Below, piece by piece: positions 9,528-44,718 of a stretch of 64,000 bases of DNA. The DNA lies in contig NZ_RZNH01000003.1 of NCBI RefSeq assembly GCF_013141825.1, positions 186,001 through 250,000 on the forward strand, written 5' to 3'. The notes beneath the pieces were generated by a model, which saw only the letters and a program-made list of their open reading frames with translations, had not been told where the DNA came from and did no database searches. Origin of the DNA: Marinifilum caeruleilacunae. GTDB lineage: Bacteria; Bacteroidota; Bacteroidia; Bacteroidales; Marinifilaceae. The translations under genes were made by a program, and so were the position numbers. How positions within the stretch are numbered: the stretch's first letter is position 1; every line of letters begins with the position of its first letter.

Positions 9528-11891
9528 ATGAATATGATTGGATACTATATAAAATCAGCCATAAAGAGCCTTTGGGCCAATGGAAAATTCTCATTGATAA
9601 ATATCATTGGATTCTCCTTTGCCATCTCGGTTTGCCTGGCCATAAGCCTGTTTGTGATTCATGAGTATTCCTACGATAAATATCATGAAAATGGGGATAG
9701 AATATACCGTTTGGTAGATTCAAAGCTCAAATCGAGCAGTATCGATTACCGCACGAAAGATTTGTTGGTGGAAAATTTCCCTGAAATAGAAAAAGCATGC
9801 ATTCTGCATTGCACCTACTTTAAGCCCATTATTAATGTTGGAAATCAATCCTATTATATGGATCAGTTCCTGTCTGCCGATGCGGACCTATTCCAGGTAT
9901 TCGATATTCCTTTAATCCTGGGAAACAAGGAAAAGCCATTTACAGATTTAAATTCTGTGTTGATATCGGAAAGTACTTCGAAACTGCTTTTTGGAGATGA
10001 AAACCCGCTGGGTAAAGAGATTCTTTACCAAAGAGAAACCCGCCTGGTGGTTACGGGAGTATTTAAAGATATGCCCGAATCGTCGAGTATAAAGGCCAGG
10101 TTTATTGCCAATGCCGCAAAAAAGGAATTTCGCTTTTCCTTCTCCTGCACTCAATATGCCGATAAAAGCACACACCGATATCCATTCAGGATCTACTTTT
10201 TACTGAATGAGAAGAGCAATCCTGAAGATTTCAGAAGCAAACTTGTCGAGAAATCGGCAGCCTTACAACCTTATGTGCATGAAGCCGATTTATTGGCATT
10301 AAAAGACATGTATCTTTTTGATACGACCAAAGGGAGTCAAAATAAAAGAGGCAATTACAAGCTATTGCAGATATTGGGTTCCATTGCAGTAATCATCCTG
10401 ATTTTAGCCATTGTAAACTACATAAACCTGGCATTGGCACAGCAGAAAAAGAAGAACCGAATTAGTGGAATTAAGAAAAGCTATGGCGCATCGGGCAGCC
10501 ATTTGTGGGGACAATTTATTACAGAGGCCATCCTGATTTCAAGCCTTGCCTTTCTGTTTGCATTCTTGCTTCTTTGGATGCTTTCGCCTGTTTATGCACT
10601 GGTCTTTAACATTCCTTTCAATATCGATATTTTTGTGCATCCATTTTTGATTCTTGCGCTTTTTGCAAGCATTTTATTGCTTGGTTTTCTGAGCGGATTT
10701 GCTCCTGCCTTTATTCTTTCAAAGGTGAGTCCCATAAGCGTGATGCGAGATACCAACTCAAAAGGATCGAGTAAATCTTACTCCAGGAATGCGTTAATCG
10801 TATTCCAGTTTAGCGTGTCCATTGCCTTAATTGTTTGTGTAATTATTGTTGAAAGGCAGATGTATTACGTAAAGCATAAAAATCTTGGTTTCGAGCCTGA
10901 ATTATTAATTAGGTTACATTCACCTATGCAAACGCCTAAAGATTTTCAGCTGCTAAAAAGCTTTGTATCCGAAATTCAAAACAATCCAAACATTGAAAAT
11001 GTAAGTCTTACCAAAGGAAACCCCGGTGGTGTAACCTTATGGATGGGCGTGGGAGAAGATTACTGGGATCAGGAAACCTACATCCCAACCATTGAAGTAG
11101 ATACTTCTTTCATTTCCACTTTTAAAATTAAGCTGATAGAAGGACGAAATGCCCAACCACACGAAATGGGTAAAGTATGTCTTGTAAACCAAACTTTTTA
11201 CGATTACTTCAGAATGGATAACATCATTGACAAGAGATATGCAAACTACGACGATGATGAAGGCTACAAAATTATTGGTGTGTTTGAAGACTACAACTAT
11301 TCGTCATTACACGAGAAAATTGAGCCAATGGCGATGATTCTGCAAGATGATCAACCCAATGCAGTTTCGCTGAGAATCAATTCCAACAATATTTCCGAAA
11401 CCATGGATTATTTAAAAACGAGTTGGGACCGAGTCCTTTCTTATTATCCGGTTTCCATGAGCTTCTACAAAGAAAGGTATAACAAGATGTACAAGAAAGA
11501 GGAGCGATTGGGGAAAACAATTAGTCTGTTCGCCCTTTTGGCCATAGCCATTTCTTGTTTTGGCATACTGGGTCTTTCCATTTTCTCGGCCGAACAGCGC
11601 ACCAAAGAAATTGGAGTAAGAAAAACCAATGGAGCCAAAACCTACGAAATTATTCAGATGCTGAACCGCGATTTCCTGAAATGGGTAGCACTTTCTTTTC
11701 TCATTGCAAGCCCAATTGCCTGGTATATCATGAACAAATGGCTGCAAAACTTCGCCTATAAAATTGAACTCAGCTGGTGGATTTTCGCCCTGGCCGGAAT
11801 CATTGCCCTGGGCATTGCACTGCTTACGGTTTCGTGGCAGTCGTGGAGGGCAGCAAACAGAAATCCGGTGGAAAGTTTGAGGTATGAATAA
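9528..11891 (+). CDS. MacB/FtsX-family ABC permease, copy 3
   Basis: A 787-residue permease of the same family. N-terminal membrane helix, MacB-like periplasmic domain with the YDKYHENGDRIYRLV box, FtsX helices near residues 280-405 and a C-terminal FtsX unit preceded by EIGVRKTNGAKTYEIIQML. The tail NPVESLRYE is identical to copies 1 and 4. Twelve nt separate it from copy 2, so the genes are one operon. Confidence 0.88.
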   Translation: MNMIGYYIKSAIKSLWANGKFSLINIIGFSFAISVCLAISLFVIHEYSYDKYHENGDRIYRLVDSKLKSSSIDYRTKDLLVENFPEIEKACILHCTYFKPIINVGNQSYYMDQFLSADADLFQVFDIPLILGNKEKPFTDLNSVLISESTSKLLFGDENPLGKEILYQRETRLVVTGVFKDMPESSSIKARFIANAAKKEFRFSFSCTQYADKSTHRYPFRIYFLLNEKSNPEDFRSKLVEKSAALQPYVHEADLLALKDMYLFDTTKGSQNKRGNYKLLQILGSIAVIILILAIVNYINLALAQQKKKNRISGIKKSYGASGSHLWGQFITEAILISSLAFLFAFLLLWMLSPVYALVFNIPFNIDIFVHPFLILALFASILLLGFLSGFAPAFILSKVSPISVMRDTNSKGSSKSYSRNALIVFQFSVSIALIVCVIIVERQMYYVKHKNLGFEPELLIRLHSPMQTPKDFQLLKSFVSEIQNNPNIENVSLTKGNPGGVTLWMGVGEDYWDQETYIPTIEVDTSFISTFKIKLIEGRNAQPHEMGKVCLVNQTFYDYFRMDNIIDKRYANYDDDEGYKIIGVFEDYNYSSLHEKIEPMAMILQDDQPNAVSLRINSNNISETMDYLKTSWDRVLSYYPVSMSFYKERYNKMYKKEERLGKTISLFALLAIAISCFGILGLSIFSAEQRTKEIGVRKTNGAKTYEIIQMLNRDFLKWVALSFLIASPIAWYIMNKWLQNFAYKIELSWWIFALAGIIALGIALLTVSWQSWRAANRNPVESLRYE

Positions 11892-19471: not shown

Positions 19472-20155
19472 TCACCCTCCCCAGCCATCACGATCCAGGC
19501 TTCGGTATTGAATGGCTTCGGCCAGGTGTTCGCTTTCGATGTCCTGCGATCCGGCCAGGTCGGCAATGGTTCTGGAAACTTTCAGGATACGGTCGTAAGC
19601 ACGGGCCGAGAGTCCCACTTTTTCCATGGCATTTTTGAGCAATTCTTTTCCTTCGGCTTTGGGCTGACAGTATTGTCGCAAAAGCTTGGAGGTCATTTGG
19701 GCATTGCAATGCATTCCTTCAATTTCCTCAAACCTCTCTTCCTGAATTTGCCTTGCCTTTTCTACCCTTGCCCTAATTTCTTCGCTCTTTTCAGACAAGC
19801 GGCTGTCCGATATCTTCTCGAAAGAGACAGGAACAACTTCGATATGAATGTCGATTCGATCTAATAAGGGGCCGCTGATTTTACTCAGGTATTTTTGCAC
19901 CATGCCGGGCGCACAAACGCAGTCTTTCTCGGGGTGATTGTAATATCCGCAAGGACATGGATTCATAGACGAGATGAGCATGGTACTGGCTGGGTAATCC
20001 ACAGTGAATTTTGCCCGTGAAATGGTAATGGTCCGATCTTCGAGAGGTTGGCGCATTACCTCTAGAACAGTTCTTTTGAATTCGGGCAATTCATCGAGAA
20101 AGAGTACACCATTGTGCGATAAGGAAATTTCGCCTGGCTGGGGAAAGGTTCCACC
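19472..20155 (-). pseudogene. comM: yifB/comM, 3' fragment (interrupted Mg-chelatase-like AAA+ ATPase)
   Basis: C-terminal 227 codons of the YifB/ComM family. The frame is open up to the island boundary and reads GGTFPQPGEISLSHNGVLFLDELPEFKR (Walker B), then the cysteine-rich SSMNPCPCGYYNHPEKDCVC and sensor regions. The gene's front half lies 23.8 kb away at 43941-44718. ComM is a branch-migration helicase used in natural transformation of other bacteria. With the AAA+ core split and part of it lost, function is surely abolished. Confidence 0.92.
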
Positions 20156-20280
20156 TGTTAATTTTAAAACAAAATGCTAAAAACGACAAATAAATCATGA
20201 CTTTTTATACAAAAGAAGGTGCAAAAACTATAAAATTATTAACAATAACACTTTAATATTTACAAAACATGATGCTAAAT
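20156..20280. repeat. Left transposon end with TnsB-type binding repeats
   Basis: Starts TGTTAATTTT. TGC-containing repeats lie at 20175 (TGCTAAAAACG), 20220 (TGCAAAAACTA) and 20273 (TGCTAAATTTT), spaced 45 and 53 nt, the last within the start of tnsA. Multiple directly repeated transposase sites at the ends are usual for Tn7-like elements. Confidence 0.6.
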
Positions 20281-20970
20281 TTTAATAAGCGTATAAGAGA
20301 AATTCCCTTAAAAAACTCCTCTTTATCAGGCGTAATTAACTCCTCTCAGATAAATAAAATTATTCAATTTGAATCATCATTAGAGCGTGATTTCATTTAT
20401 CTTCTAGAGTTTGATATTTACGTTGACAAATATTTAGAACAACCTCTAGAGATTTCATACAATGATACTATAGGTAATTCTAAAAAATACATACCGGATT
20501 TCGCTATTAGCTATCTCGATGATAGACCAAATGAAATAATAGAAATTAAACATTGTAGTTCACTACAAGAAAAACAGGAAGAATTAATTCCTAAATTTAG
20601 AGCTGCAGAACAGTTCTGTGAAGAAAATAATTCAATTTTTAAGGTAATTACCGAGGAACATATAAGAAAAGACAAAGGTATTGAACTTGAAAATTATAAG
20701 TTTTTATCTAGGTATCGTAATTATTTTAACAATTTAAACTCTAATAATAGCGTGTTGTTTACTCAAAATTCAGATCATCTTGTTTTATACAATAGGATGT
20801 TTGAATTCAAAAAATGTACTGTAAAGTATCTGATTGATCAGTGTACCTCGGATTTTGAGAAAAAAGCTGAATTATTATTTTTAACTTGGTGTCTAGTCGC
20901 AACAAATTTCTTTTCAATTGATTTTACTAAAAAAATCAATACTAATTCTATAATATGGTACAACGAATAG
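20269..20970 (+). CDS. tnsA: TnsA-like endonuclease
   Basis: A 233-residue TnsA-type nuclease, which cuts the 5' ends of the transposon so that it moves by cut-and-paste. The N-terminal domain has SSLERDFIYLLEFD, YIPDFAISYLDD and the PD-(D/E)xK lysine in IIEIKHCSS, so the catalytic E, D and K positions are intact. A C-terminal helical region of about 100 residues probably contacts TnsC. First gene after the left end; its stop overlaps the tnsB start by 16 nt, which indicates coupling. Confidence 0.88.
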   Translation: MMLNFNKRIREIPLKNSSLSGVINSSQINKIIQFESSLERDFIYLLEFDIYVDKYLEQPLEISYNDTIGNSKKYIPDFAISYLDDRPNEIIEIKHCSSLQEKQEELIPKFRAAEQFCEENNSIFKVITEEHIRKDKGIELENYKFLSRYRNYFNNLNSNNSVLFTQNSDHLVLYNRMFEFKKCTVKYLIDQCTSDFEKKAELLFLTWCLVATNFFSIDFTKKINTNSIIWYNE

Positions 20971-22814
20971 TCTTTGAAATTGGTAACAAAGTAGAGTTTA
21001 AAGGAAACCATGCTGTCATAATAAAGATAGCTGACATTGATAAAGTAAGCATACAAATGTTAGAAACAAACATTGTACATACTGTCAAAACTTCAGAAAT
21101 TAGATATGTTGAGAAATCTAGACAAATTAAGTATAGACCGTTCGATGCTTTAACTGATAAAGAATGGCATATTGCTAATAAGAGATATAAAATCATCAAA
21201 CCTATACTGGAAGAGAAAGCCAGTTTAGATAAAATCAAGCAGATTGCAATCGAAAATCATGTTCATTATACTACATTGTATCGATGGATAAAAGCATATC
21301 GAAAAGAAGGGTTAATATCTGCATTGGCATCACAAAAAAGGTCTGGTGGTAAAAATAAAAGTAGATTATCTATCCTTGTTGATACTATAATAGATGAAAC
21401 CATTGTTAATGTCTATTTAACCCCTTCAAAGAAATCCATTTCAAAAGTAATAAGAACAATCATTATGGAGTGTAAAGATCAAGATATCAATCCTCCACAT
21501 CCTAATACCATTAGAAATCGAATTAAAAATCTTTCTGAGGAAGAAGTTCTGAAATCAAGGTATGGTAAAAAAATATCAAGAGATAAATTCGAACCAATAA
21601 AGTCACATTTCCCTGGTGCTAACTATCCTCTATCCGTTGTGCAGATAGATCATACTTGTGTAGATATTATTTTGGTTGATGAATTATATCGAAAACCTTT
21701 CATGAGACCGTATATAACAGCAGCAATTGATGTATATAGCCGTATGGTCGTTGGTTTACACCTATCATTTGATCCTCCTGGAGCAATGGGAACAGGTATG
21801 TGCCTTGCGAATGCAATATTAGGCAAAGAAATGACATTAGAAAGGCATAACATCAAAGGCGAATGGCCTTGTTGGGGAACAATGGCTACAATTCACGTGG
21901 ATAATGCAAAAGAGTTTAGAGGTCATATGCTCAAACGTGCATGTATGGAATATGGAATAAATATTGAGCATAGACCAGTTGCAACTCCTCACTGGGGTGG
22001 TCATATTGAAAGAGTACTTGGTACCTTTACAAAAGAAATCCACAACCTGCCTGGCTCCACATTTTCAAATGTAAAAGACAGAAAAAATTATAACTCTCAA
22101 GTAAAGGCTGCACTAACAATCTCAGAATTTGAAAAGTGGTTACTTACATATATAATAAATGTATACCACAAAAAAATACATTCCTCAATTGGAGTTACTC
22201 CATTAGAAAAATTTAAACAAGGAATTCTAGGAGAAAACGGAACTGGTCTTCCTTCTAAGATATTTGATGAAAGGCGGGTGCGATTAGATTTTATGCCATT
22301 CTTTGAAAGAACAATTCAGGAATATGGCGTTGTTATAGATCATGTCTATTATTATGATGATGTTCTAAGAAAATACATTCACTCAAGAGAAAAAAGCACG
22401 AAATACAGCCCTAAAAAGAAGTTTGTTTTTAAACGAGATCCACGAGATATCAGTCAAATTTATTTCTATGATCCTGAACTTAACGACTATTTCGACATCC
22501 CATACCGTGATACATCTAAACCTCCAATTTCCATTTGGGAATTCAATGAAGTAGTAACTAAACTTCAGAAAGAAAATGAATCAATAAATGAAGACATGAT
22601 ATTCGAAGCTTACAGGGATATGGAAAAAATTGAACTTAAAGCAATTCGTGAAACAAGGAGGCTTAAACGGTTTTCTCGCCTTTCCGATAAAAGAAATGAG
22701 AATATACACGATGAATTAAACAGGCAGGAAGAAATCAACCAAGATAATAAAGCGAATAACATTCCAAATATTTTACCATTTGATGACATCGATGATGAAG
22801 CATTTACATCCTAG
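20955..22814 (+). CDS. tnsB: TnsB-like DDE transposase
   Basis: A 619-residue transposase of the Mu/Tn7 integrase superfamily that joins the 3' ends to the target. An N-terminal helix-turn-helix region (HYTTLYRWIKAYRKEGLISAL) is followed by an RNase H-fold core with catalytic D232 (VVQIDHTCVD), D316 (IHVDNAKEF) and E352 (GGHIERVLG), then a Mu-type beta-barrel domain and a charged tail that in relatives binds TnsC. All catalytic residues are present, so it is probably active. Overlaps tnsA and tnsC. Confidence 0.93.
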   Translation: MVQRIVFEIGNKVEFKGNHAVIIKIADIDKVSIQMLETNIVHTVKTSEIRYVEKSRQIKYRPFDALTDKEWHIANKRYKIIKPILEEKASLDKIKQIAIENHVHYTTLYRWIKAYRKEGLISALASQKRSGGKNKSRLSILVDTIIDETIVNVYLTPSKKSISKVIRTIIMECKDQDINPPHPNTIRNRIKNLSEEEVLKSRYGKKISRDKFEPIKSHFPGANYPLSVVQIDHTCVDIILVDELYRKPFMRPYITAAIDVYSRMVVGLHLSFDPPGAMGTGMCLANAILGKEMTLERHNIKGEWPCWGTMATIHVDNAKEFRGHMLKRACMEYGINIEHRPVATPHWGGHIERVLGTFTKEIHNLPGSTFSNVKDRKNYNSQVKAALTISEFEKWLLTYIINVYHKKIHSSIGVTPLEKFKQGILGENGTGLPSKIFDERRVRLDFMPFFERTIQEYGVVIDHVYYYDDVLRKYIHSREKSTKYSPKKKFVFKRDPRDISQIYFYDPELNDYFDIPYRDTSKPPISIWEFNEVVTKLQKENESINEDMIFEAYRDMEKIELKAIRETRRLKRFSRLSDKRNENIHDELNRQEEINQDNKANNIPNILPFDDIDDEAFTS

Positions 22815-23679
22815 AACAGCAAAGATAGTAGAGAATTTCACTGATGAAAATCGGATCTTTTCCATAAAAAAACCGAAATGGATAGGCTATACTCATGCAC
22901 ATACCATTCTAAAAAAACTGGAGAATCTTAGAGATTATCCAAGGAATTTACGCATGCCAAACCTTTTATTAGTCGGTGATTCCAACAACGGAAAGACTAT
23001 TTTACTTAATAAATTCACCGAAGAAAATAAAAGCTACGTTGAAGAAGCTAGCCAAGAAAAACGAATCCCTATTTTAATGATACAAGCCCCTCCTGATCCT
23101 GACGAAAAAAGATTTTATAATACAATTTTAGAAAGTCTATTTGCCCCATATAAATCATCTGAAAAGATAGAGATGCGACAGCAAAGAGTTATTCACCTTT
23201 TAAGGAAAGTTCAACTAAAAATGCTTATTATTGATGAAATTCATCACTTGTTAGCCGGCACTATGGCAAAACAACGATCCTTTCTAAATGTACTTAAGTA
23301 TTTGGCTAATGAACTAATGATTCCTTTTGTATGTTCAGGAACGCGCGAAGCTTTACACGCCATTCAAACTGACCCTCAACTTGCAAATCGATTTGAACCA
23401 AAAGTTTTACCCAGATGGCAAAATGACGAAGATTATTTGAGGCTACTAGCATCTTTTGAGCGTATACTTCCATTAAAAAATGCTTCTCTACTAATAGAAA
23501 ACTCTCTGGCAAGTACAATTCTTTTAAAAAGCGAAGGATTAATTGGTGAAATCTCAAAAATATTGGAGTTATCATCGATACTTGCTATTGAATCAGGAAT
23601 TGAAAAAATTAATCAAAATATTTTAGAAAATATAGATTACACCCCTCCAAGTGAACGTAAAAAAATGATGTATCGATGA
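22795..23679 (+). CDS. tnsC: TnsC/TniB-like AAA+ target regulator
   Basis: A 294-residue AAA+ ATPase that bridges transposase and target selector. Walker A GDSNNGKT (61-68), Walker B LIIDEIHHLLAG, sensor region VCSGTREALHA and the arginine region NRFEPKVLPRW fit the TniB family. The ATG at 22795 (MKHLHPRTAK) matches relatives better than the upstream in-frame ATGs and TTG; it overlaps tnsB by 20 nt. A second, divergent copy lies at 42335-43219. Confidence 0.92.
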   Translation: MKHLHPRTAKIVENFTDENRIFSIKKPKWIGYTHAHTILKKLENLRDYPRNLRMPNLLLVGDSNNGKTILLNKFTEENKSYVEEASQEKRIPILMIQAPPDPDEKRFYNTILESLFAPYKSSEKIEMRQQRVIHLLRKVQLKMLIIDEIHHLLAGTMAKQRSFLNVLKYLANELMIPFVCSGTREALHAIQTDPQLANRFEPKVLPRWQNDEDYLRLLASFERILPLKNASLLIENSLASTILLKSEGLIGEISKILELSSILAIESGIEKINQNILENIDYTPPSERKKMMYR

Positions 23680-24656
23680 AATCTTTTAGGGGAAATAAAC
23701 ATATTTGGCCAGGTTATGTTCCCCCAAATAAAAATGAATTATTATCCAGTTGGATATTTAGAAATTCAAGAGAGCACAAAATTAAGCCTCATTCTTTTAC
23801 CAAGTATTATTTGGATACATCAAGTTTCTGGACTAGAGATGTTGATAAATTTATCAATAATAAAATTTTACATTTAATTTATAATCAAACTCCATTATCG
23901 TTCAATCAGATCAAGAACATGCAGCTTACTAGTTATCAAGATATTATTTTCAACGGCGAGCTCTTAACTTCATATTCACAAGGAATATCTAACCTAGGTA
24001 TATATCATAGAAAAAGAAAACAAAATGGACTTTTAATATGTCCAACTTGTTTAGGACGAGATAAGTATTATAAAAAAAACTGGAGGTTATTAACTTCTAT
24101 TGGGTGCCTGGTGTGTAACTCTTATTATATTGACTGTTGTCCCAAATGTCTTTCCCCAATTATATTTCAACGACTTGCCATTGGAGAAAAGGCTATTTAT
24201 AATGAATACCCAATGTATTTGTGTTGGAAATGTCTCTATGATTACAGAAAAATAAGACAAACTAAATTACCTCAAATAGTATGGGACTATCAGAATTATA
24301 TTGATAAAACCATTTTTGACGGTTATAATACACACATAAAATATTCATTCTTATATTTCCAAGTAATATTCTTAATTCTTAGAAGAGTTCAATCAAGTTC
24401 TATTCTATGGACACGAATTAGAGATGCTTTTATTAAAGAGTTTGACATTTCGGAGCTTGAATTATTTCAGAGAAGTCAATTCCCATCTTTTAAACTAAGA
24501 TCGAAGATTCTTCCCTTAATTTTTGTCATATTGGAAGGCTGGCCTGATAATTTTGTGACTTTTTGTAAAAAGTATAACCTTAGATACTCAGATTTTACAA
24601 GAGGGGAACAGGAGCTACCGTATTGGTTTTACAAAGTTTTCAGAGATTTCTTTTAA
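23676..24656 (+). CDS. tniQ: TniQ/TnsD-like target-selection protein
   Basis: A 326-residue TniQ-family protein with the usual opening (HIWPGYVPPNKNELLSSWIFR). Zinc-binding cysteine pairs follow in ICPTCLGRD, IGCLVCNSYY, DCCPKCLSP and LCWKCLYD, then a helical C-terminal region of about 120 residues. TniQ proteins recognise the attachment site and recruit TnsC. As the only one here, it is the likely comM-recognising factor (inference). Its ATG overlaps the tnsC stop by 4 nt, closing the tnsABC-tniQ operon. Confidence 0.88.
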   Translation: MKSFRGNKHIWPGYVPPNKNELLSSWIFRNSREHKIKPHSFTKYYLDTSSFWTRDVDKFINNKILHLIYNQTPLSFNQIKNMQLTSYQDIIFNGELLTSYSQGISNLGIYHRKRKQNGLLICPTCLGRDKYYKKNWRLLTSIGCLVCNSYYIDCCPKCLSPIIFQRLAIGEKAIYNEYPMYLCWKCLYDYRKIRQTKLPQIVWDYQNYIDKTIFDGYNTHIKYSFLYFQVIFLILRRVQSSSILWTRIRDAFIKEFDISELELFQRSQFPSFKLRSKILPLIFVILEGWPDNFVTFCKKYNLRYSDFTRGEQELPYWFYKVFRDFF

Positions 24657-24924
24657 TTCTACCTTGAAAAAATAATATTGGCAGAATCTTCAAGAATATC
24701 CTTGCTCATAGCCTTTTATTTTCTTCATCCTCTAGTATACTTCTATTATGCTTTACTCATATTAGAATTGTTATTTCACATTCACACTTTATGCACCCCA
24801 AAATTAAGAATAATCTATTTAATGCTTTTTACAAATTTCTCGATAAGGAACGGTCAATTATCAGAAATAACACAGATTATTAGATCTACTCAACAAGTTG
24901 TATTTTGCCTTAATTTAACGACAA
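24657..24924. other. Gap between transposition genes and cargo
   Basis: AT-rich stretch after tniQ. An open frame starting with TTG crosses it, but its composition and hydrophobic low-complexity translation do not look like a real gene. Nothing else recognised before the promoter of the next gene. Confidence 0.5.
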
Positions 24925-24982: not shown

Positions 24983-25459
24983 ATGATAGCAGAAAAGAAA
25001 AAAACACGCACAAATGTGGGATTATCTAACATTGAAGAATATTTAAAGGATGTTCGATCAAAGAGTTCCGATGCTTTATCGTCAGAATGGGCTTTTGTCA
25101 CGATTTTAAACAAAAATCTTTCAGCAGATGATTTCAGTCTATTTTACAACAAAGCATCAGAATTAGGAATCTCTAAAAAAGAGTACGCTAAGGTTCTACA
25201 CATAAACGTAAGAACATTAGAAAGAAATCTTAAAAATGAATTTACTCTTAAAGTTGACAAATACGAAAATGCTGTACGAATCTTCTCTATGATGATTCAC
25301 GGCATAGAAGTATTTGGTGAAACTGCTAGGTTTTCAAACTGGCTAAAAAACCATAGCCGAGCATTAGGTTGTAGACCTGTAGAATTACTTGAAACTATTG
25401 CCGGAATACAGATAGTAGACGATGAAATTACTCGAATAGAGTATGGCGTTTACTTCTAA
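24983..25459 (+). CDS. Xre/MbcA/ParS-type antitoxin
   Basis: A 158-residue antitoxin of the DUF2384 family. The central helix-turn-helix-like part (ELGISKKEYAKVLHINVRTLERNL) is followed by a C-terminal DUF2384 region (ENAVRIFSMMIHGIEVFG, FSNWLKNHSRALGCRPVELLET) that in relatives plugs the NAD-binding pocket of a RES toxin. A RES gene follows, but 228 nt downstream instead of directly adjacent. Own promoter and operator lie upstream. Confidence 0.88.
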   Translation: MIAEKKKTRTNVGLSNIEEYLKDVRSKSSDALSSEWAFVTILNKNLSADDFSLFYNKASELGISKKEYAKVLHINVRTLERNLKNEFTLKVDKYENAVRIFSMMIHGIEVFGETARFSNWLKNHSRALGCRPVELLETIAGIQIVDDEITRIEYGVYF

Positions 25460-25687
25460 TTCTTGATATTCAATTTAAATTTTAAAAACCAATGAAATGA
25501 GATACGACACAAGCTAAAAAAACATGGGGAAAGTTGAGCAACTGGAAAATATCGATGGGTACTTGACCTAATAAGACTCAACGTAAAGATAACGATATAT
25601 TAAATTTTAGATTTTTGATACATGAAGAAAACAATTACTAGTCCTGATTAGCTCCAAAAGTAGTAGGCAGGCATAAATAGAGAAATT
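25460..25687. other. Unusual gap inside the toxin-antitoxin module
   Basis: Antitoxin and RES toxin genes normally touch. Here 228 nt with stop codons in all frames separate them. The middle contains short coding-like remnants but nothing identifiable. It may be a scar of an insertion or hold a separate signal for the toxin gene. Confidence 0.4.
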
Positions 25688-26149
25688 ATGCAAAAAAAGG
25701 TATACAGGATATGTCCAACAGTTAGAGCTGAAGACATATCGGGTTATGGTTCAAAGATGGTAGGTGGCCGTTTTAACTCAAAAGGAAGAGCTGTAGTTTA
25801 CACATCTTCCTCAATTTCTCTCTCAATAGTTGAAGTGCTTGCACATTACTCTATTGAGACAAGTCCGAAGGATTTGTCTTTAGTGACAATTTCCTTTCCG
25901 GAAGATTCTATTAAGATTAAAAGTGCAGAAGATTTAGATTCAAGCTGGAAAGATACCCCAGTAAGCACTTATGCTAAATCTATTGGGGATGCTTGGATAG
26001 ACAGTTTAGAAAGCTTGGTTCTTGCAGTTCCAAGTGTTGTAAATCCTTACGAAGTTAATTATATCATTAACCCAAATCACCCAAGGTTTAATGAAGTCAC
26101 AATAGAAAAAGTTGAAGATTGGTTCTTCGACGACAGATTAATAAAGTAA
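25688..26149 (+). CDS. RES-domain toxin (NAD+-degrading family)
   Basis: A 153-residue RES protein. The family consumes NAD+ and stops growth when free of antitoxin. The family residues are visible: YRICPTVRAEDISGYGSKMVGGRFNSKGRAVVYTSSS includes the G-x-RFN and Y-x-S pocket elements. SIVEVLAHYSIE carries the conserved glutamate, and WFFDDRLIK ends the protein as in relatives. Length typical. Followed by a strong terminator. Confidence 0.88.
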   Translation: MQKKVYRICPTVRAEDISGYGSKMVGGRFNSKGRAVVYTSSSISLSIVEVLAHYSIETSPKDLSLVTISFPEDSIKIKSAEDLDSSWKDTPVSTYAKSIGDAWIDSLESLVLAVPSVVNPYEVNYIINPNHPRFNEVTIEKVEDWFFDDRLIK

Positions 26150-33619: not shown

Positions 33620-33740
33620 ATAAAGTTCATAAAATCGTCCGTTTTATAAAACAAATCAGATAATCAAAAATAATCATAGCTTAATAGTTACATTTTCCGT
33701 TTTATTTAATAGTTTTATAAATTATGCATTTATAAAACTA
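33620..33740. promoter_or_regulatory. Putative res site of the serine resolvase
   Basis: Just upstream of the resolvase gene lie three related blocks built on GTTTTATAAA: an imperfect dyad near 33625-33652, a partial copy near 33695-33708 and a perfect dyad (AGTTTTATAAA, 7-nt spacer, TTTATAAAACT) at 33711-33739. Multi-subsite arrays of about 28-bp dyads are how Tn3-type resolvases are organised; the last dyad overlaps the promoter region, so autoregulation is likely. Confidence 0.6.
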
Positions 33741-33744
33741 ATTT

Positions 33745-34314
33745 ATGATATTTGGATATGCTCGGGTCTCTACTCCAGAGCAAAACATTAGTAGTCAAAT
33801 TTCGATGTTAAAAGATGCTGGTTGTAAGAAAGTTTATACTGATACTGCAAGTGGAGTTAGAGAAAATAGAAATGGTCTCAAAGAATTAATGCAAACAATT
33901 AGAAAAGGAGATACTGTAATTGTATATCGCGTTGATAGAATTTTTCGATCACTCAAAAATATGGTCGAGTTAATTGAAACATTCAATCAAATGCAAGTAA
34001 ACTTCACAAGTTTATCTGAACCACAATTTGACACAACCTCTGCCAATGGTAAATTCTTACTTCAGATTTTTGGAGCTGTAGCTGAATTTGAGCGTAATCT
34101 AATTAGTGAAAGAACTAAAATAGGTCTAGTTAATGCCAGAAAAAGGAAAAAGTTATTAGGAAGACCTAAGGGACCTACGAAAGATAGCCTTGATAAATAC
34201 GAATACGCCTGTCATTTATATGAAAATAAAAATTATCCTATTGATAAAGCATGTCAAGCAGCTGGGATTAGTAAGACAACTTTTTATCGTATAGATAAAA
34301 TGAAAAATAAATAA
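33745..34314 (+). CDS. tniR: Serine resolvase (TniR/Tn3 type)
   Basis: A 189-residue small serine recombinase. The catalytic domain begins FGYARVSTPEQN with R7 and S9, has VDRIFRSLKNM (R65, R68) and EFERNLISERTKIGL, all conserved for activity. The C-terminal helix-turn-helix is DKACQAAGISKTTFYRI. Such enzymes resolve cointegrates formed by replicative transposons such as Tn5053/Tn402. Here it sits in the middle of an element that also carries TnsA, where cointegrates are not expected. A res-like site precedes it. Confidence 0.92.
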   Translation: MIFGYARVSTPEQNISSQISMLKDAGCKKVYTDTASGVRENRNGLKELMQTIRKGDTVIVYRVDRIFRSLKNMVELIETFNQMQVNFTSLSEPQFDTTSANGKFLLQIFGAVAEFERNLISERTKIGLVNARKRKKLLGRPKGPTKDSLDKYEYACHLYENKNYPIDKACQAAGISKTTFYRIDKMKNK

Positions 34315-34391: not shown

Positions 34392-34820
34392 TTAATTTAT
34401 ATCCATATCATGCTGAATTCCTCCTCCATTCCATTTACCTGTCACTGACCAAATTTCATAATGAAGTAACCATTCCGATATCCATGGTACCAATATATCA
34501 GCAAGCAACATGCTTGTATCCCACTCTCTTGCCCTTTTATAATAAAGACATAACCATTGCTTATCCTCGCTGTATAAATGATTGAAATCGTCTTCTTTTT
34601 TTCTTTTTCTTAAAACTGGTGAAAGGACATAAACATTGGGAGATTTCCCTAGCCTGTAGATCAATTTAATTTTATACTTTTCACTTAATGGACTTGGCTG
34701 CAAGTTATGTTTCCATGTAAGTACATTTTTGCTAATTGTAACAGTAGAAGAGGGAAATAAACTCTTCAATTTCCCTCTTTGTATTCCTAAATTAATGATA
34801 TTTTTTTTTATTTTATCCAT
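34392..34820 (-). CDS. E2-like protein of a short type II CBASS
   Basis: A 142-residue protein with the layout of CBASS E2-only (short Cap2) proteins: an N-terminal alpha/beta segment (LTWKHNLQPSPLSEKYKIKLIY), a PNVYVLSPVL strand, and the block KQWLCLYYKRAREWD holding the only cysteine-centred motif, a candidate catalytic Cys. ILVPWISEWLLHYEIWSVTGKWNGGG completes the fold. In studied systems the E2 protein attaches the cyclase to targets or to itself and raises activity. Its ATG overlaps the cyclase stop by 8 nt; last gene of the operon. Confidence 0.8.
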   Translation of the reverse strand: MDKIKKNIINLGIQRGKLKSLFPSSTVTISKNVLTWKHNLQPSPLSEKYKIKLIYRLGKSPNVYVLSPVLRKRKKEDDFNHLYSEDKQWLCLYYKRAREWDTSMLLADILVPWISEWLLHYEIWSVTGKWNGGGIQHDMDIN

Positions 34821-36039
34821 GAAAATTGTGGTTTTTTACTGTTTCTCCTACCGCTCCTAAAATTCCAGTTCCTCTTGCCATTTTAAGGGCGCCTACTTCC
34901 CGTTTTTTCAAAAGTCGCTCTCCATAAGCATTAAAAGCCTTATTCATAACATCTTCACCAAAGGGCCTTTTAAGAGATTCAACAATTAATGGTAATGAAG
35001 GTTTCAGTGATAGAGCACTTATATCTTTTTTTACCTGATTTAACCAAGAATAAAAATTTTCCTGCTTTTTAGGATTCTCTGGCCATTTATCTGCAAAATT
35101 TTCTTCCTGATTCACAGGATTTCCAATCCATTTAATCATTCTTCCATGCTCTTCGGAATATCTCTCTTCAATTTCTAATTCCAATTGATTAACAATATTT
35201 ACAAGAGCATCCATTATATTTCCTTCCCTTCGGTATGCCTTAGCCGAAAGTGTTGTAATAATGATTGAAATTGGCTTGTGTTCATCTCCATTAAACATGA
35301 TGTCACGATGTCGTTTTAATATCTGGATCACGCGTTGTAAGGGCAATTTATTCTCCTGGTATTTTGGAACAGGTTGAACTGCCTCACTCATCCAAATAGC
35401 TTTTTTAAAATCAATGTTTGCAATATTGAAAAACCACTTGCCGTAACCAAAAGGATTGCTTTTCATCCAATTAAGATGATTGGTGTCTGAATAATAATTC
35501 TCATCCTGATTATCCGTAATTCGAATTGCCAAATCGTTTACCTCTCCTAGATCAGTTGCAGCAAAGGCCTTTTCTAATACTTCACGATAACCAGAGTCTA
35601 CTACTGCAGGAAGAATATCCATATGATATCGTTCTTTTATATTTGGCGAATCCTGACGATATTCAAGTGTCCAACATCTCCTTCCTTCATCGTCAAGCAT
35701 TTTTTTGTAAGTTTCGTTATCTTTTATGCGATCACCTACTTTTTGTTTTACTCCGTACTGAGCCCAGTTTGGATTTTTTCCTTTTAATTGGCAAACCAGA
35801 TCAATATCCATATCATCATTTTCGTTAATAGGCTTGATCATAGTTCCAAGCATAAAAGAGCCTTGAGGTAAAATTTCAGGCATATAAGGTGCCAAACTTG
35901 ATTTCTCATCCGAAAGCCATTTTCCTACTGCCTGATAACTGTCAACAGCTGCGTTATATTGTGTCTCATTAATGTCAAGGGATTCTCCCAAGTTTTCCAA
36001 CAAATCATTAATTTGTATTTTCTGTTCAGGTGTCATCAT
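34813..36039 (-). CDS. CD-NTase (CBASS cyclic nucleotide synthase)
   Basis: A 408-residue nucleotidyltransferase of the cGAS/DncV-like family. The catalytic site has PQGSFMLGT (GS helix), DDMDIDLVCQL (metal-binding D-x-D) and the third aspartate in ERYHMDILPAV; a C-terminal helical domain follows. On phage infection such enzymes make a cyclic oligonucleotide that switches on the effector. ATG 36039 was chosen over an in-frame TTG at 36045; it starts 2 nt after the effector gene ends. The product nucleotide cannot be told from sequence by eye. Confidence 0.9.
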   Translation of the reverse strand: MMTPEQKIQINDLLENLGESLDINETQYNAAVDSYQAVGKWLSDEKSSLAPYMPEILPQGSFMLGTMIKPINENDDMDIDLVCQLKGKNPNWAQYGVKQKVGDRIKDNETYKKMLDDEGRRCWTLEYRQDSPNIKERYHMDILPAVVDSGYREVLEKAFAATDLGEVNDLAIRITDNQDENYYSDTNHLNWMKSNPFGYGKWFFNIANIDFKKAIWMSEAVQPVPKYQENKLPLQRVIQILKRHRDIMFNGDEHKPISIIITTLSAKAYRREGNIMDALVNIVNQLELEIEERYSEEHGRMIKWIGNPVNQEENFADKWPENPKKQENFYSWLNQVKKDISALSLKPSLPLIVESLKRPFGEDVMNKAFNAYGERLLKKREVGALKMARGTGILGAVGETVKNHNFHG

Positions 36040-36041
36040 TT

Positions 36042-37193
36042 TCAATTGGGTTTTATTTCAATAGTTTTTACAAATCCTTTTCTCTTACTGTTTTGGTCAT
36101 AAATTAACATTCCCATATCTGCTTTAGGCATCCAAACTCTTCCCAGTTCAACCGCAGTAGCAACAGGCATTGAAGGGAAAATATTTAAAACCGTATCCTG
36201 TCCATGTTTTGCTTTAATTTCATCAAAAGCATAACGCATAAGTTTCCTAAATTCCATAAGTTGATTTCTGGTTCTTAAAAAATCATTGCTAGGGGAATCT
36301 ATTTTTATTGACCAAATAGAGGTATCCTCACCAAGGACAGATTCAATTCTATCGTCAGTGATTGTTGCACTAAGTTCAAATTTTAAGGCTACTTTTTTTG
36401 TTATTTTATCTGGAGCAACCAATCGAAATTTGATCAGTTCCGTTTCATCAAGCCACTTCCATGTTGAAGGTTCCCGGTGTAATTGGTAAACTTCAGCAGG
36501 ATAAATATCATTTAATAGGGTACCTAATTGAATCAACAAGGGTTGAGGAGCTAATGCAAAAATAGAGTAATGGTGGTGTGGACTGTTTTCTTCTAAATAT
36601 TTTAATTTTTCAGAAAATTGATTGTTTAAGTTTTCTCTTTGAATTTCCCAAAAGATTTCTTTATCGTCCTCAAAAAGTGTATTGTGCATACCAAGATCTA
36701 TAGTTTTATATTCCGCCGGAAAATAGTTTGGTATTACTGCTTCACGAACACGATTATAGGACAAAGGAGTATCATGAGTTCCTACTTTTGCACCAAACAA
36801 AACAATGTGTGACTTCTTATCCGGACTGATACCTGTTAATAATTCAATTCTTTCCTCATGATCCTTTTTCATTTGGATTAATCGTATAGCAGAAAATTCA
36901 TCCTCGCGCTTTTTATCATCAATTAAACGATGGCATTCATCGCATACCAGCATCAAATTAGAAAAATCGATTTCCAATTTTGGAGATAAGACTTCATCGT
37001 AGCGAGGTCCATTTGGAGAATAAGCATAAATATGTGCTATATATGAAATATTCATTTGATTCATAGTAGCACCATGGCGCCAAAGCGGTTTGTTACAACC
37101 TTCAAATTGACACCGACCTGCAGAACTTGTCCACAATTGGGTTTTTACTAATACTGGTATTGAGGGCCTGCTGTTAGATTGTTTTTTTGTCAT
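36042..37193 (-). CDS. cap5: HNH-SAVED effector nuclease of CBASS (Cap5-like)
   Basis: A 383-residue effector. The N-terminal HNH nuclease has zinc cysteines (GRCQFEGCNKPL ... VCDECHRLID) and the catalytic histidine in SYIAHIYAYSPNGPR. The C-terminal SAVED domain, about residues 140-380, contains FALAPQPLLIQLGTLLND and VYQLHREPSTWKW. In known systems SAVED binds the cyclic nucleotide and the HNH domain then shreds DNA, killing the infected cell. First gene of the three-gene CBASS operon. Confidence 0.9.
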   Translation of the reverse strand: MTKKQSNSRPSIPVLVKTQLWTSSAGRCQFEGCNKPLWRHGATMNQMNISYIAHIYAYSPNGPRYDEVLSPKLEIDFSNLMLVCDECHRLIDDKKREDEFSAIRLIQMKKDHEERIELLTGISPDKKSHIVLFGAKVGTHDTPLSYNRVREAVIPNYFPAEYKTIDLGMHNTLFEDDKEIFWEIQRENLNNQFSEKLKYLEENSPHHHYSIFALAPQPLLIQLGTLLNDIYPAEVYQLHREPSTWKWLDETELIKFRLVAPDKITKKVALKFELSATITDDRIESVLGEDTSIWSIKIDSPSNDFLRTRNQLMEFRKLMRYAFDEIKAKHGQDTVLNIFPSMPVATAVELGRVWMPKADMGMLIYDQNSKRKGFVKTIEIKPN

Positions 37194-41757: not shown

Positions 41758-42334
41758 GTCTTATTGATCTATTTTAGTTAATAATTATTGGCTTGCAGAT
41801 GATTAGTTCAAGTTATTTTCAATATTATGCATTTCGATATATGTAAATTAACACTCAAAACTTTTTACTTTACCGCAATATTATAGTACATAAGTTATAA
41901 CATATTTTGAGAAAAAAATATATTCCTCTTCTAATATTTTTTTTGATTATCCATATTTTAGAACTAATTACTTGAAAGAAAGTTACCGCTTTCATATTTT
42001 CCGGTAATAGACCATTCAAACTAAGCATTTTTAGTGGAATAATCAATAACTCTATTGATTTCAACATTATAGGACCAAGAGAAAGTTGGATCTGCATTTC
42101 TCGTATAATTATAAATTATAATATTTGGATGAATTGCTTCTGAATATGCTGTACCAAATTTAAAAGCCAATGATATTAGGTCCTGCATAAAATAAATGCC
42201 CCCTCTTAATTTTATCTGAAATCACTTTTTTATTTAATAAATGTTTTTAATTTTATAATGCAAAAAAAATCACAAATCTCATTAGTAATCTATTACTTAA
42301 CTCTTGCAAAGAATCCCCTTAACTTTATACAACA
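41758..42334. other. 577-bp non-coding gap with a decayed reverse-strand gene
   Basis: On the minus strand about 42173-41964 the DNA still reads AFKFGTAYSEAIHPNIIIYN, NADPTFSWSYNVEINR and, after a stop, FEWSITGKYESGNF, which looks like part of a secreted beta-rich protein. The remainder is AT-rich and contains the end-like sequence described next. Confidence 0.4.
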
Positions 42335-42345
42335 GTGCAACACAT
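42242..42345. repeat. Internal sequence resembling the left transposon end
   Basis: TGTTTTTAATTTTATAATGC followed by A-rich sequence and ACAAAT looks like the true left end (TGTTAATTTT ... ATGCTAAAAACGACAAAT). TGC repeats at 42259 and 42305 are spaced 46 nt, as at the left end (45 nt). AT richness makes chance similarity possible. It directly precedes the second tnsC-like gene. Confidence 0.35.
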
Positions 42346-43219
42346 AGATGAATCAATTAGATATATTTTAGATAAAAGTAAGGAGGATAGAATTTTCTTT
42401 TCAAAATGTGATAAATGGTTCGATTACAGGAAGGCAAGCGAAATATTTAAAATATTGGAGGACTTACTAAAACATCCACCTGTTCTCCGCATGCCAAATC
42501 TACTAATTACAGCAGAGACGAATAATGGAAAAACTGCATTAGTACGTAAGTTCTACTCAAAATATAAGCCACATGTCGAAATTGAAAATAATAGAATATC
42601 TGGAAGAGCAATATATGTGCAAGCCCCTCCAATACCAGATGAAAGAAGATTTTACAACACCTTACTTGAAGAACTAAATATTTCATACTGCATTTCAGAT
42701 AAACTCGAAAAAAAAAGAATCCAAGTTCTTAATGCTTTGCAAAACTTAGGAACGAAGATGGTTATTATTGATGAAATTCATCATATACAAGCAGGATCGC
42801 TTGTCAAACAAATAGCATTTATAAACATGCTTATAACACTATCTGATCTTCTTCAAATTGTGATAATTACAGTGGGTATTTTTGAAGCACATAGCTCTTT
42901 CGCAATTTCCTCTCAATTCTCCAATCGCTTCGATTGGATTTCTTTGCCAAAATGGGAGTTGAACGAAGACTATTTTCGACTTTTAGAAAATTTTGCAAAG
43001 TTTCTGCCTCTGCATCATCCATCAACTATACAAGATCCCAAAATAGCTTCAAAAATACTAAAAATGAGTGAGGGCACCATTGGTGAAATATCAAAAATAC
43101 TTACTATTGCGAGTATAAAAGCCATTATTTCTGAGACAGAACAAGTTGATAGTCATATTCTAGAAAATATCAATTATTTGACACCATCAAATCGGAGAGC
43201 TTATTCATCTTTTTTTTGA
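42335..43219 (+). CDS. Second TnsC/TniB-like AAA+ ATPase
   Basis: A 294-residue paralogue of TnsC (22795-23679) and of the same length. Walker A AETNNGKT (60-67) and Walker B MVIIDEIHHIQAG are intact; the shared blocks LRMPNLL, APP-PDERRFYNTLLEEL and EGTIGEISKIL are visible. Differences lie in the sensor region (TVGIFEAHSS in place of CSGTREALHA) and the C-terminal tail. The start codon is GTG. No transposase or TniQ gene accompanies it. It could be an alternative target adaptor or the relic of a second transposon. Confidence 0.88.
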   Translation: MQHIDESIRYILDKSKEDRIFFSKCDKWFDYRKASEIFKILEDLLKHPPVLRMPNLLITAETNNGKTALVRKFYSKYKPHVEIENNRISGRAIYVQAPPIPDERRFYNTLLEELNISYCISDKLEKKRIQVLNALQNLGTKMVIIDEIHHIQAGSLVKQIAFINMLITLSDLLQIVIITVGIFEAHSSFAISSQFSNRFDWISLPKWELNEDYFRLLENFAKFLPLHHPSTIQDPKIASKILKMSEGTIGEISKILTIASIKAIISETEQVDSHILENINYLTPSNRRAYSSFF

Positions 43220-43803
43220 TCAATTAGAATACTCTTTCTGTAACAATTAGTAACACCTTCACGATTTAAATATCTGTATATTGTAGCCCTAGATTTATTT
43301 AATATTTTAACGATCTTTTCAACTTCAATTCCTTTTAAATACATATTTTTGGCTTTTCGAGCTGCAACCTTATCGTAATTTCCTTTAATTCGCCCCCCTA
43401 CCACTCCTTTCAATTTAGCTTTTGCAAGACCAACTCTCGTATCCCGTAGATAAACGGAATCTTTCATATCAATAAAATTTCGGCAAATTACGAGAAATTG
43501 CCTATTTGTCTCAGTATTAAAGCATGGCTCTGAAAGACTTTTATAATGAATTCCCATTCCCTCTAATTCCAATAGAAATCGGATAAAATTAACTACTTGT
43601 ATGCCTAAACGATCATTGGAATAGACTACCAGAGTATCATCACGATAGAGAGAATCTTTAATCCTTTCCAATAAAGACCTTTCTCTTTCACCCTTTATGT
43701 AATTAAATTGAATAATTTTTTCACACCCTTCTTTTTGAAGAGCAATGATATCGTTCTCTACTTCTCCATCTTTAAAATAACTATAAGTAAAGCCTATTTT
43801 CAT
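43201..43803 (-). CDS. Serine-resolvase homologue lacking catalytic residues
   Basis: A 200-residue protein alignable along its length with the active resolvase at 33745. The start reads KIGFTYSYFKDGE, so the catalytic Ser (S9) is Tyr and R7 is Tyr. D64/R65 are kept, but the arginine at 68 is Ile and the ERxLIxERT box is KDSVYLRDT. The C-terminal helix-turn-helix (VEKIVKILNKSRATIYRYLN) is well preserved. A DNA-binding, non-recombining protein is therefore likely. Tail-to-tail with the second tnsC-like gene, 19-nt overlap. Confidence 0.75.
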   Translation of the reverse strand: MKIGFTYSYFKDGEVENDIIALQKEGCEKIIQFNYIKGERERSLLERIKDSLYRDDTLVVYSNDRLGIQVVNFIRFLLELEGMGIHYKSLSEPCFNTETNRQFLVICRNFIDMKDSVYLRDTRVGLAKAKLKGVVGGRIKGNYDKVAARKAKNMYLKGIEVEKIVKILNKSRATIYRYLNREGVTNCYRKSILIDQKKDE

Positions 43804-43859
43804 GTTTATAACTTTAAATTTAAAAAATTAAATTTTTATAAATTTGGAATATTGTTTTA

Positions 43860-43940
43860 TATCGGAGAAATGGTATTAGCATATGTTAATGTAAATTTGC
43901 AAAAGCAATTGTATTTTTGCATCTTCTAATGTAAATGACA
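43860..43940. repeat. Right transposon end
   Basis: Read inward the end begins TGTCATTTAC, with a TGCAAAAA site at 43914-43921 (minus strand), exactly 20 nt from the tip as at the left end, and a further TGCTAAT at 43875-43881. The comM frame resumes immediately outside. Confidence 0.6.
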
Positions 43941-44718
43941 CCAATGTTCCGGCAACCGAGTGAATTTTGGTGGTTTCCAATGCTTCCTGCAGACTCAAAG
44001 GCGGTAATATTCCGGGAATTCGTTTGGCCAGCATGGTTTTTCCTGCACCCGGAGGACCAATCATGATGATGTTATGCCCACCGGCTGCCGCAATTTCCAA
44101 AGCTCGTTTTACATTCTCCTGCCCCTTTACATCGGCAAAATCGTGTGGGAACTGATTCAGATGAGCGTAAAATTCGGCCCTGGTATCTACTTCGGTAGCG
44201 GGAATTTCTGCATCGCCTTTTAAAAATCCGATCACCTCGCTTATATTTTCTGCCCCATACACTTTTAGCTTGTTGACCACTGCAGCTTCGCGGGCATTTT
44301 CTTTGGGCAATATCAAGGCTTTGAATCCTTCTTCCCGGGCCTGAATGGCCATTGGCAAAACTCCTTTTATGGGCACCAAACTTCCATCCAATGACAGTTC
44401 GCCCATAATTACGAATTCCTCCAGATTCTCGCATTGCATCTGTTCAGTTGCTGTTAATATACCAATGGCAAGTGGCAAATCGTAGGCCGACCCTTCTTTT
44501 CTGATATCGGCAGGAGCCATATTGATAATGATCTTCTTCCCGGGGATTTTATAGCCGGCTTCTCTCAAAGCAGAATCGATGCGTTGCTGACTTTCCTTTA
44601 CTGCATTATCGGGCAATCCAACAATGGAAAATCGCACACCGGGAAAAACATTCACCTCAATGGTAATTGTAGTTGCATGAATGCCATAAACAGCACTTCC
44701 GTAGGTTTTAACAAGCAT
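43941..44718 (-). pseudogene. comM: yifB/comM, 5' fragment
   Basis: First 259 codons of the YifB/ComM family. MLVKTYGSAVYGIHATTITIEV is the Lon-protease-like S5 N-domain, then NIIMIGPPGAGKTMLAKRIPGILPPLS (Walker A) leads to TTKIHSVAGTL, where the island begins. In relatives the next 27 or so residues include RPFRSPHHT and a VGGG run; these are absent at both junctions. The frame runs 21 codons into the island before a stop, so a truncated product could be made. Confidence 0.92.

Follow-up and report, generated by a model that had tools for sequence, protein, structure and literature searches.

A second TnsC-type ATPase paired with a catalytically dead serine resolvase, a candidate target-selection module of a comM-inserted Tn7-like transposon

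A Tn7-like transposon interrupts the host gene comM (yifB) in a 64,000-nucleotide (nt) stretch of Marinifilum caeruleilacunae (contig NZ_RZNH01000003.1, positions 186,001 to 250,000; hereafter the window). At its right end it carries a second TnsC/TniB-type ATPase, TnsC2, facing a serine resolvase homolog without catalytic residues, ResX. The same pair was found in an element of a second genus, and neither element retains an intact tnsE. We consider it an even chance that TnsC2-ResX gives the transposon a second means of target selection, replacing TnsE. The narrower proposal, a built-in hunter of resolvase (res) sites that replaces TnsE by the element's own dead resolvase and a dedicated TnsC2, giving two full pathways with separate AAA+ hubs and one TnsAB, is in our judgment somewhat unlikely. 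The right end is laid out as follows (aa, amino acids; HTH, helix-turn-helix).

42206..43943: right-end block common to the element of Ancylomarina sp. DW003 (93.2% nt identity), comprising the upstream region, TnsC2, ResX, and the right end
42335..43219, plus strand: TnsC2, TnsC/TniB-type AAA+ ATPase, 294 aa, GTG start
43201..43803, minus strand: ResX, Tn3-type serine resolvase fold, 200 aa, catalytic residues gone, C-terminal HTH kept

TnsC2 has the hallmarks of a TnsC/TniB ATPase: a Pfam TniB domain (E 5e-53), Walker A (AETNNGKT) and Walker B (MVIIDE) motifs, and an NRF motif with its Arg retained. The Ala that replaces the first Gly of Walker A is likewise present in 6 of 78 other TnsC proteins. 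Identity to TnsC1 of the same element is 44% over 289 columns. An earlier note on this DNA, made from the sequence alone, had claimed a second TnsC/TniB with intact Walker motifs at this place, and this held true; the start it gave (42242) is upstream of the frame, which is open over 298 aa only.

ResX lies tail-to-tail with TnsC2, overlaps its end by 19 base pairs (bp), and starts 137 bp from the right transposon end. It matched the Pfam families Resolvase (E 1.8e-8) and HTH_7 (E 2.1e-7) and has the catalytic-domain fold, long helix, and HTH of serine resolvases. Aligned with other serine recombinases (49 sequences in all), ResX departs at 8 of the 11 conserved catalytic positions: Y replaces both R7 and S9, G replaces Q13, I replaces R68, and K, D, R, and D occupy the four E/R positions of ERxLIxERT, whereas D64, R65, and T124 are kept. 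Among the 47 other recombinases (both ResX rows excluded), R7 is present in 47 and S9 in 46. ResX thus lacks the Ser nucleophile, R7, R68, and ERxLIxERT of an active serine resolvase. The earlier note had recognized the tail-to-tail serine recombinase homolog, listed the same losses, and stated that the DNA-binding domain is kept, in all of which it was right. As a resolvase, ResX is not a TnsE, and as a member of the serine family outside any operon with tniQ, it is not a TnsF. A duplicate of ResA, the catalytically complete resolvase of the same element, was considered and rejected, because the tree sets the ResX pair on a long branch beside L004 (96/72), apart from ResA. A role as the comM selector is unlikely, since 17 other comM elements are without ResX.

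The pair is not confined to the window, as a check of co-occurrence suggested in the earlier note revealed. Ancylomarina sp. DW003, of another genus in the same family, encodes TnsC2 (94% aa identity) and ResX (90%) within its own comM element. Besides the right-end block, the two elements have in common the left core with the comM flank (19474-24684, 85.8% nt) and a block around ResA (33636-34307, 89.3% nt), making three blocks (blastn, E up to 1e-5), plus a 29-bp match between tnsC genes. Their TnsC1 proteins and left cores are sisters in the tree. The cargo between the common blocks is unrelated: the window carries CBASS-like genes and others, and the open frames of DW003 look, by eye, like efflux and metal-transport genes. 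The pair keeps its position at one end despite the differing cargo, and it therefore behaves as a part of the transposon.

Relatives of the element were collected by a TnsC profile scan of a genome collection (one genome per species, 84,980 species; best 80 of 99 relatives kept), whose scan patterns could miss distant pairs. No third TnsC2-ResX case was found by TnsC2 searches of 32 genomes with related TnsC, 57 of the family, and 295 of the order, or by a ResX search of 395 genomes of the phylum. TnsC2 matched only two of the order genomes, the window's own and one other (G230, 42%); three family genomes had any match, with an orthologue only in the window's genome and DW003 (recognized there by its coordinates). 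In 58 relatives and 395 phylum genomes (42 with a match), long ResX matches beyond the window's own reached at most 34%. At least 5000 plasmid records matched ResX, all below 60% identity, and the 15 matches listed were at 32-34%; where these were annotated beyond hypothetical, they were recombinases, two with further names. Viral contigs scanned with ResX and TnsC2 held no relative.

In the comparison of the window with DW003, the ratio of nonsynonymous to synonymous substitution rates (dN/dS) was 0.124 for TnsC2 and 0.395 for ResX; it was 0.121 for TnsA, 0.090 for TnsB, 0.073 for TnsC1, 0.165 for TniQ, and 0.039 for ResA. In neutral simulations with an equal number of changes, none of 4000 came down to the amino-acid change count of TnsC2; a fraction of 0.043 did so for ResX. 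Neither gene has an internal stop. TnsC2 is under strong purifying selection and is no relic, so that the relaxed selection by which the earlier note would have recognized a relic is not seen. The synonymous rate dS was 0.12-0.20 for ResX and TnsC2 versus 0.48-0.61 in the left core, so that exchange or transfer of the right end came later. The element is a mosaic in this respect, with a right-end block 93% and a left core 86% identical to DW003, the right ends having been exchanged.

We compared 25 elements, namely those of the window and DW003 and 23 from related genomes, some of them partial; 19 were covered with both comM flanks, including the window's and DW003's. Of the 17 other Bacteroidota comM elements with both flanks, all but G329 carry a gene that we call putative tnsE (16 elements), an intact frame 545-617 aa long (stop to stop) that runs opposite to tniQ. 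It lies tail-to-tail with tniQ in 14 and at the right end beside comM in two (G334, G355). None of these 17 elements has a second TnsC. A family profile was built from 19 members, which match it by construction; what counts is the existence of the frames. Among the six elements without both flanks, the gene is in the covered part of four (G327, G333, G352, G354). G331 and G343 have a putative tnsE in another locus of each (L049 and L066), on the same strand as tniQ in L066. Hymenobacter metallilatus (G333, locus L169, 875-3690) has tniQ and tnsE tail-to-tail at its right end, much as TnsC2 and ResX are arranged; its tnsABC genes are on a different contig.

DW003 has a decayed tnsE fragment beside tniQ, which spans roughly 176 codons from the start of the gene and is interrupted by stops and frame changes, and the window's genome had no match to the TnsE family profile at E <= 1. 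An intact putative tnsE stands behind tniQ in the relatives closest by TnsC1, namely Aquimarina, Chryseobacterium rhizoplanae, and C. vrystaatense. Together with the DW003 fragment, this indicates that the lineage once had TnsE and then lost it.

We identified the relatives' gene as a putative TnsE, the selector of plasmids and replication forks, and the comparison of predicted folds was decisive. By sequence, no Pfam match of 10 family members had an E below 0.06, five members were without an NCBIfam match, and the PDB yielded nothing. In the predicted model, whose mean confidence is low (58.6), the six best Foldseek matches were TnsE C-terminal domains (E 0.13-0.47, none significant alone). 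Fold comparison gave Z scores of 10.4 (9d5l), 10.3 (5d17), and 9.8 (5d16), followed by 6.2 for the next entry; according to the tool's own warning, a best Z of 7-8 is common without true kinship. The middle part of the model resembles the oligonucleotide-binding (OB) folds of SSB and RPA, and SSB domains were reported in TnsE by Faure et al. (PMC10293859, section 11). The TnsE_C profile matched three frames in 21 proteobacterial genomes, all below the cut-off (17.3, 16.2, and 15.9 versus 26.7 bits). These frames (572, 598, and 585 aa) are by position, as mapped by hand, also the family-profile matches in L048, L045, and L068. Since the control also produced a sub-cut-off match (1 of 14 genomes), a match of this kind counts for little by itself. 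Plasmids were searched with TnsB in order to reach the TnsE of Tn7, and other relatives were among the matches listed. Passages of Faure et al. (PMC10293859) describe the TnsE of Tn6022-like elements as only weakly detectable and far from other transposon genes, and a review (passages in PMC11406308) describes TnsE homologs as almost universal among comM-targeting elements.

The earlier note had offered target selection, an immunity function, or a relic as explanations of the pair. Target selection is now the best supported of these, owing to the recurrence in a second genus with other cargo, the purifying selection on TnsC2, and the absence of intact tnsE; the relic is disfavored. Tn7-like elements often keep two pathways, one for a safe chromosomal site and one for mobile plasmids (passage in PMC11406308). 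With TnsE lost, the second pathway would be vacant, and its place could plausibly be taken by a dead, DNA-binding resolvase that has a TnsC to itself. In such a scheme, TnsABC1 and TniQ would keep the homing pathway into comM. ResX, foldable and presumably DNA-binding but unable to cut, would mark a target, at which a dedicated TnsC2 ring would assemble and recruit the common TnsA and TnsB. By analogy with the 'res site hunters' of the Tn5053 type, this pathway would most likely target resolvase-type sites, on plasmids or on other mobile elements. We infer the DNA binding of ResX, its contact with TnsC2, the cooperation of TnsC2 with TnsAB, and the target; the place of the gene, the loss of TnsE, and conservation are what suggest that ResX may act as a Tn7-like target selector.

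Several observations weigh against target selection. Only two elements with the pair are known, both are inserted in comM, and no insertion by the proposed pathway is known. TnsC2 deviates at nine near-invariant TnsC positions (eight in the DW003 copy) and the median of the 78 others is 0, although four of the 78 deviate at 13-15 such positions, two of these being fragments. Its branch is long (1.13) and its place in the tree uncertain, and a protein so divergent may fail to work with this TnsB. ResX is probably maintained, but the selection on it is weak and the evidence for it marginal. A search for ResX operators gave only short AT-rich inverted repeats before ResX and around the TnsC2 start, perhaps by chance, and no binding site. 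The loss of tnsE is one event at most, as the TnsC1 proteins are sisters, and may be a coincidence. One comM element (G329) has neither tnsE nor any substitute that we could see. Tn7-like elements without recognizable tnsE occur on plasmids (Benler et al., passage in PMC8649781), which means that the loss of TnsE does not call for a replacement.

Regulation or immunity is the strongest rival, though an unlikely one. ResX would bind the transposon's own right end or a promoter, and an altered TnsC2 ring would block or modulate TnsC1-TnsAB, as in target immunity or activity control, without opening new targets. The short distance from ResX to the right end, the TnsC2 deviations at otherwise near-invariant positions, and the AT-rich repeats, if not due to chance, would fit. 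However, TnsC2 retains its Walker motifs and the Arg of NRF, the 17 other comM elements manage without a second TnsC, and the absence of tnsE in just these two elements would be left unexplained. It is less probable still that the two genes are cargo passengers unrelated to transposition, brought in by another element and having some other function or none. Their rarity (orthologues in two genomes only), the weak constraint on ResX, and the position of TnsC2 outside the TnsC1 clade of these elements favor this; the fixed right-end place despite differing cargo, the strong constraint on TnsC2, and, within 10 kb of the pair in DW003 (L017), the lack of any remains of tnsB or tniQ do not. That a second tnsC and a resolvase are decaying remains of an older element or a tandem insertion is very improbable: the dN/dS of ResX and a locus with two tnsABC sets side by side at comM (L073) are compatible with it, but both frames are intact in two genera, TnsC2 evolves far from neutrally, and the broken gene is tnsE instead of the pair.

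If target selection is correct, a serine resolvase with its own TnsC would be a new type of selector and a compact two-protein targeting module, linked to the res-hunting of Tn5053/Tn402. The known Tn7-like selectors (TnsD, TnsE, TnsF, and Cas complexes) are unrelated DNA-binding machines. Sister elements bearing TnsE provide a contrast that makes the replacement directly testable. TnsE works through the common TnsC, whereas a second TnsC is present here; ResX has no sequence or fold relation to TnsE of Tn7 and Tn6022-like elements, and the likeness lies in the second-selector slot and, for some relatives, in position and strand at the right end. Elements of the Tn5053/Tn402 family are reportedly res-site hunters (Minakhina 1999; Kamali-Moghaddam 2000), in which the resolvase belongs to the target (Minakhina 1999). 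They resemble the present system in a TniB-type ATPase and a target choice tied to a DNA-bound resolvase; in the present case it would be a dead one encoded by the element itself. Targeting in Tn5053 is by TniQ, and TnsA is lacking there, according to a passage of PMC11406308; the window element has TnsA.

The TnsF of Tn6022, an inactive tyrosine recombinase and comM selector (PMC10293859), is likewise a dead site-specific recombinase in a comM-inserted Tn7-like element. ResX differs in its serine family and in facing an orphan tnsC instead of a tniQ operon, and it is probably not a comM selector, as relatives without it also insert in comM. TniR/tnsR and other resolvases inside Tn7-like elements share with ResX a serine resolvase gene within the element; in the relevant passages of PMC8649781 they are thought to resolve cointegrates, whereas ResX has no catalytic residues and its element has TnsA and a complete ResA. 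A second, distinct tnsC nearby also appears in the survey of Faure et al., where passages describe it as operonic with tnsB (PMC10293859), whereas TnsC2 is alone with ResX. The earlier note knew of no described pair of this kind, and in our search of open-access literature, which did not cover subscription papers and supplements, no serine-resolvase target selector or such orphan TnsC appeared among the papers and passages listed. The words 'serine', 'resolvase', and 'TnsC2' are absent from the main text of Faure et al. (PMC10293859).

The remainder of the element conforms to the comM group of Tn7-like transposons, with tnsA, tnsB, tnsC, and tniQ in order, TGT...ACA ends, and insertion in comM. 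The full tnsABC-tniQ set stated in the earlier note was confirmed by Pfam matches for all four genes; the complete ResA and the location in comM/yifB were not in it. The other features are listed below.

19472..20089, minus strand: 3' part of host comM; comM sequence goes on to the left end at 20155
20156..20268: left transposon end, TGTTAATTTT...; CCACC lies just before it (20151-20155) and is present on either side of the DW003 element
20269..20970, plus strand: tnsA (Pfam Tn7_TnsA-like_N, E 1.5e-15)
20955..22814, plus strand: tnsB, DDE transposase (Pfam Mu-transpos_C, E 3.6e-7; rve, E 4.3e-5)
22780..23679, plus strand: tnsC1 (Pfam TniB, E 7.3e-74)
23676..24656, plus strand: tniQ, 326 aa (Pfam TniQ, E 1.9e-14), without tnsE behind it, unlike most relatives
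33745..34314, plus strand: ResA, serine resolvase with catalytic residues, 96% aa identity to DW003 ResA
43876..43940: right transposon end with a repeated 21-bp motif, presumably TnsB-site-like, ending in ...ATGACA
43876..44718, minus strand: open frame starting in the 5' part of host comM and extending into the transposon end; comM down to about 43946

Close behind tniQ, the place of tnsE in most relatives, are genes for an Xre/MbcA/ParS-type antitoxin and a RES-domain protein (24983-26149, plus strand). The CBASS-like cargo operon (34392-37193, minus strand) encodes an E2-like protein, a nucleotide cyclase, and an HNH-SAVED effector. A complete resolvase with 67-71% identity to ResA is present in 7 of the 23 other elements, though tnsA-bearing elements should need no cointegrate resolution; resolvases in such elements were remarked on in a passage of Benler et al. 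(PMC8649781).

The 5-bp target duplication CCACC is present on both sides only in the DW003 element. At the right end of the window's element (43940-43946), approximately 80 bp of host comM that are present in DW003 (L017, about 11610-11700) are gone, and this deletion also took the right copy of the duplication. Of 25 entries, 12 have a comM 5' part that stops short of residue 245 in the 255-residue query, and in 18 of 19 cases the left flank begins from residue 1; deletions next to the right end may be favored. In three loci (L080, L073, and L094), tnsA adjoins the 5' part of comM, which indicates insertion in the opposite orientation.
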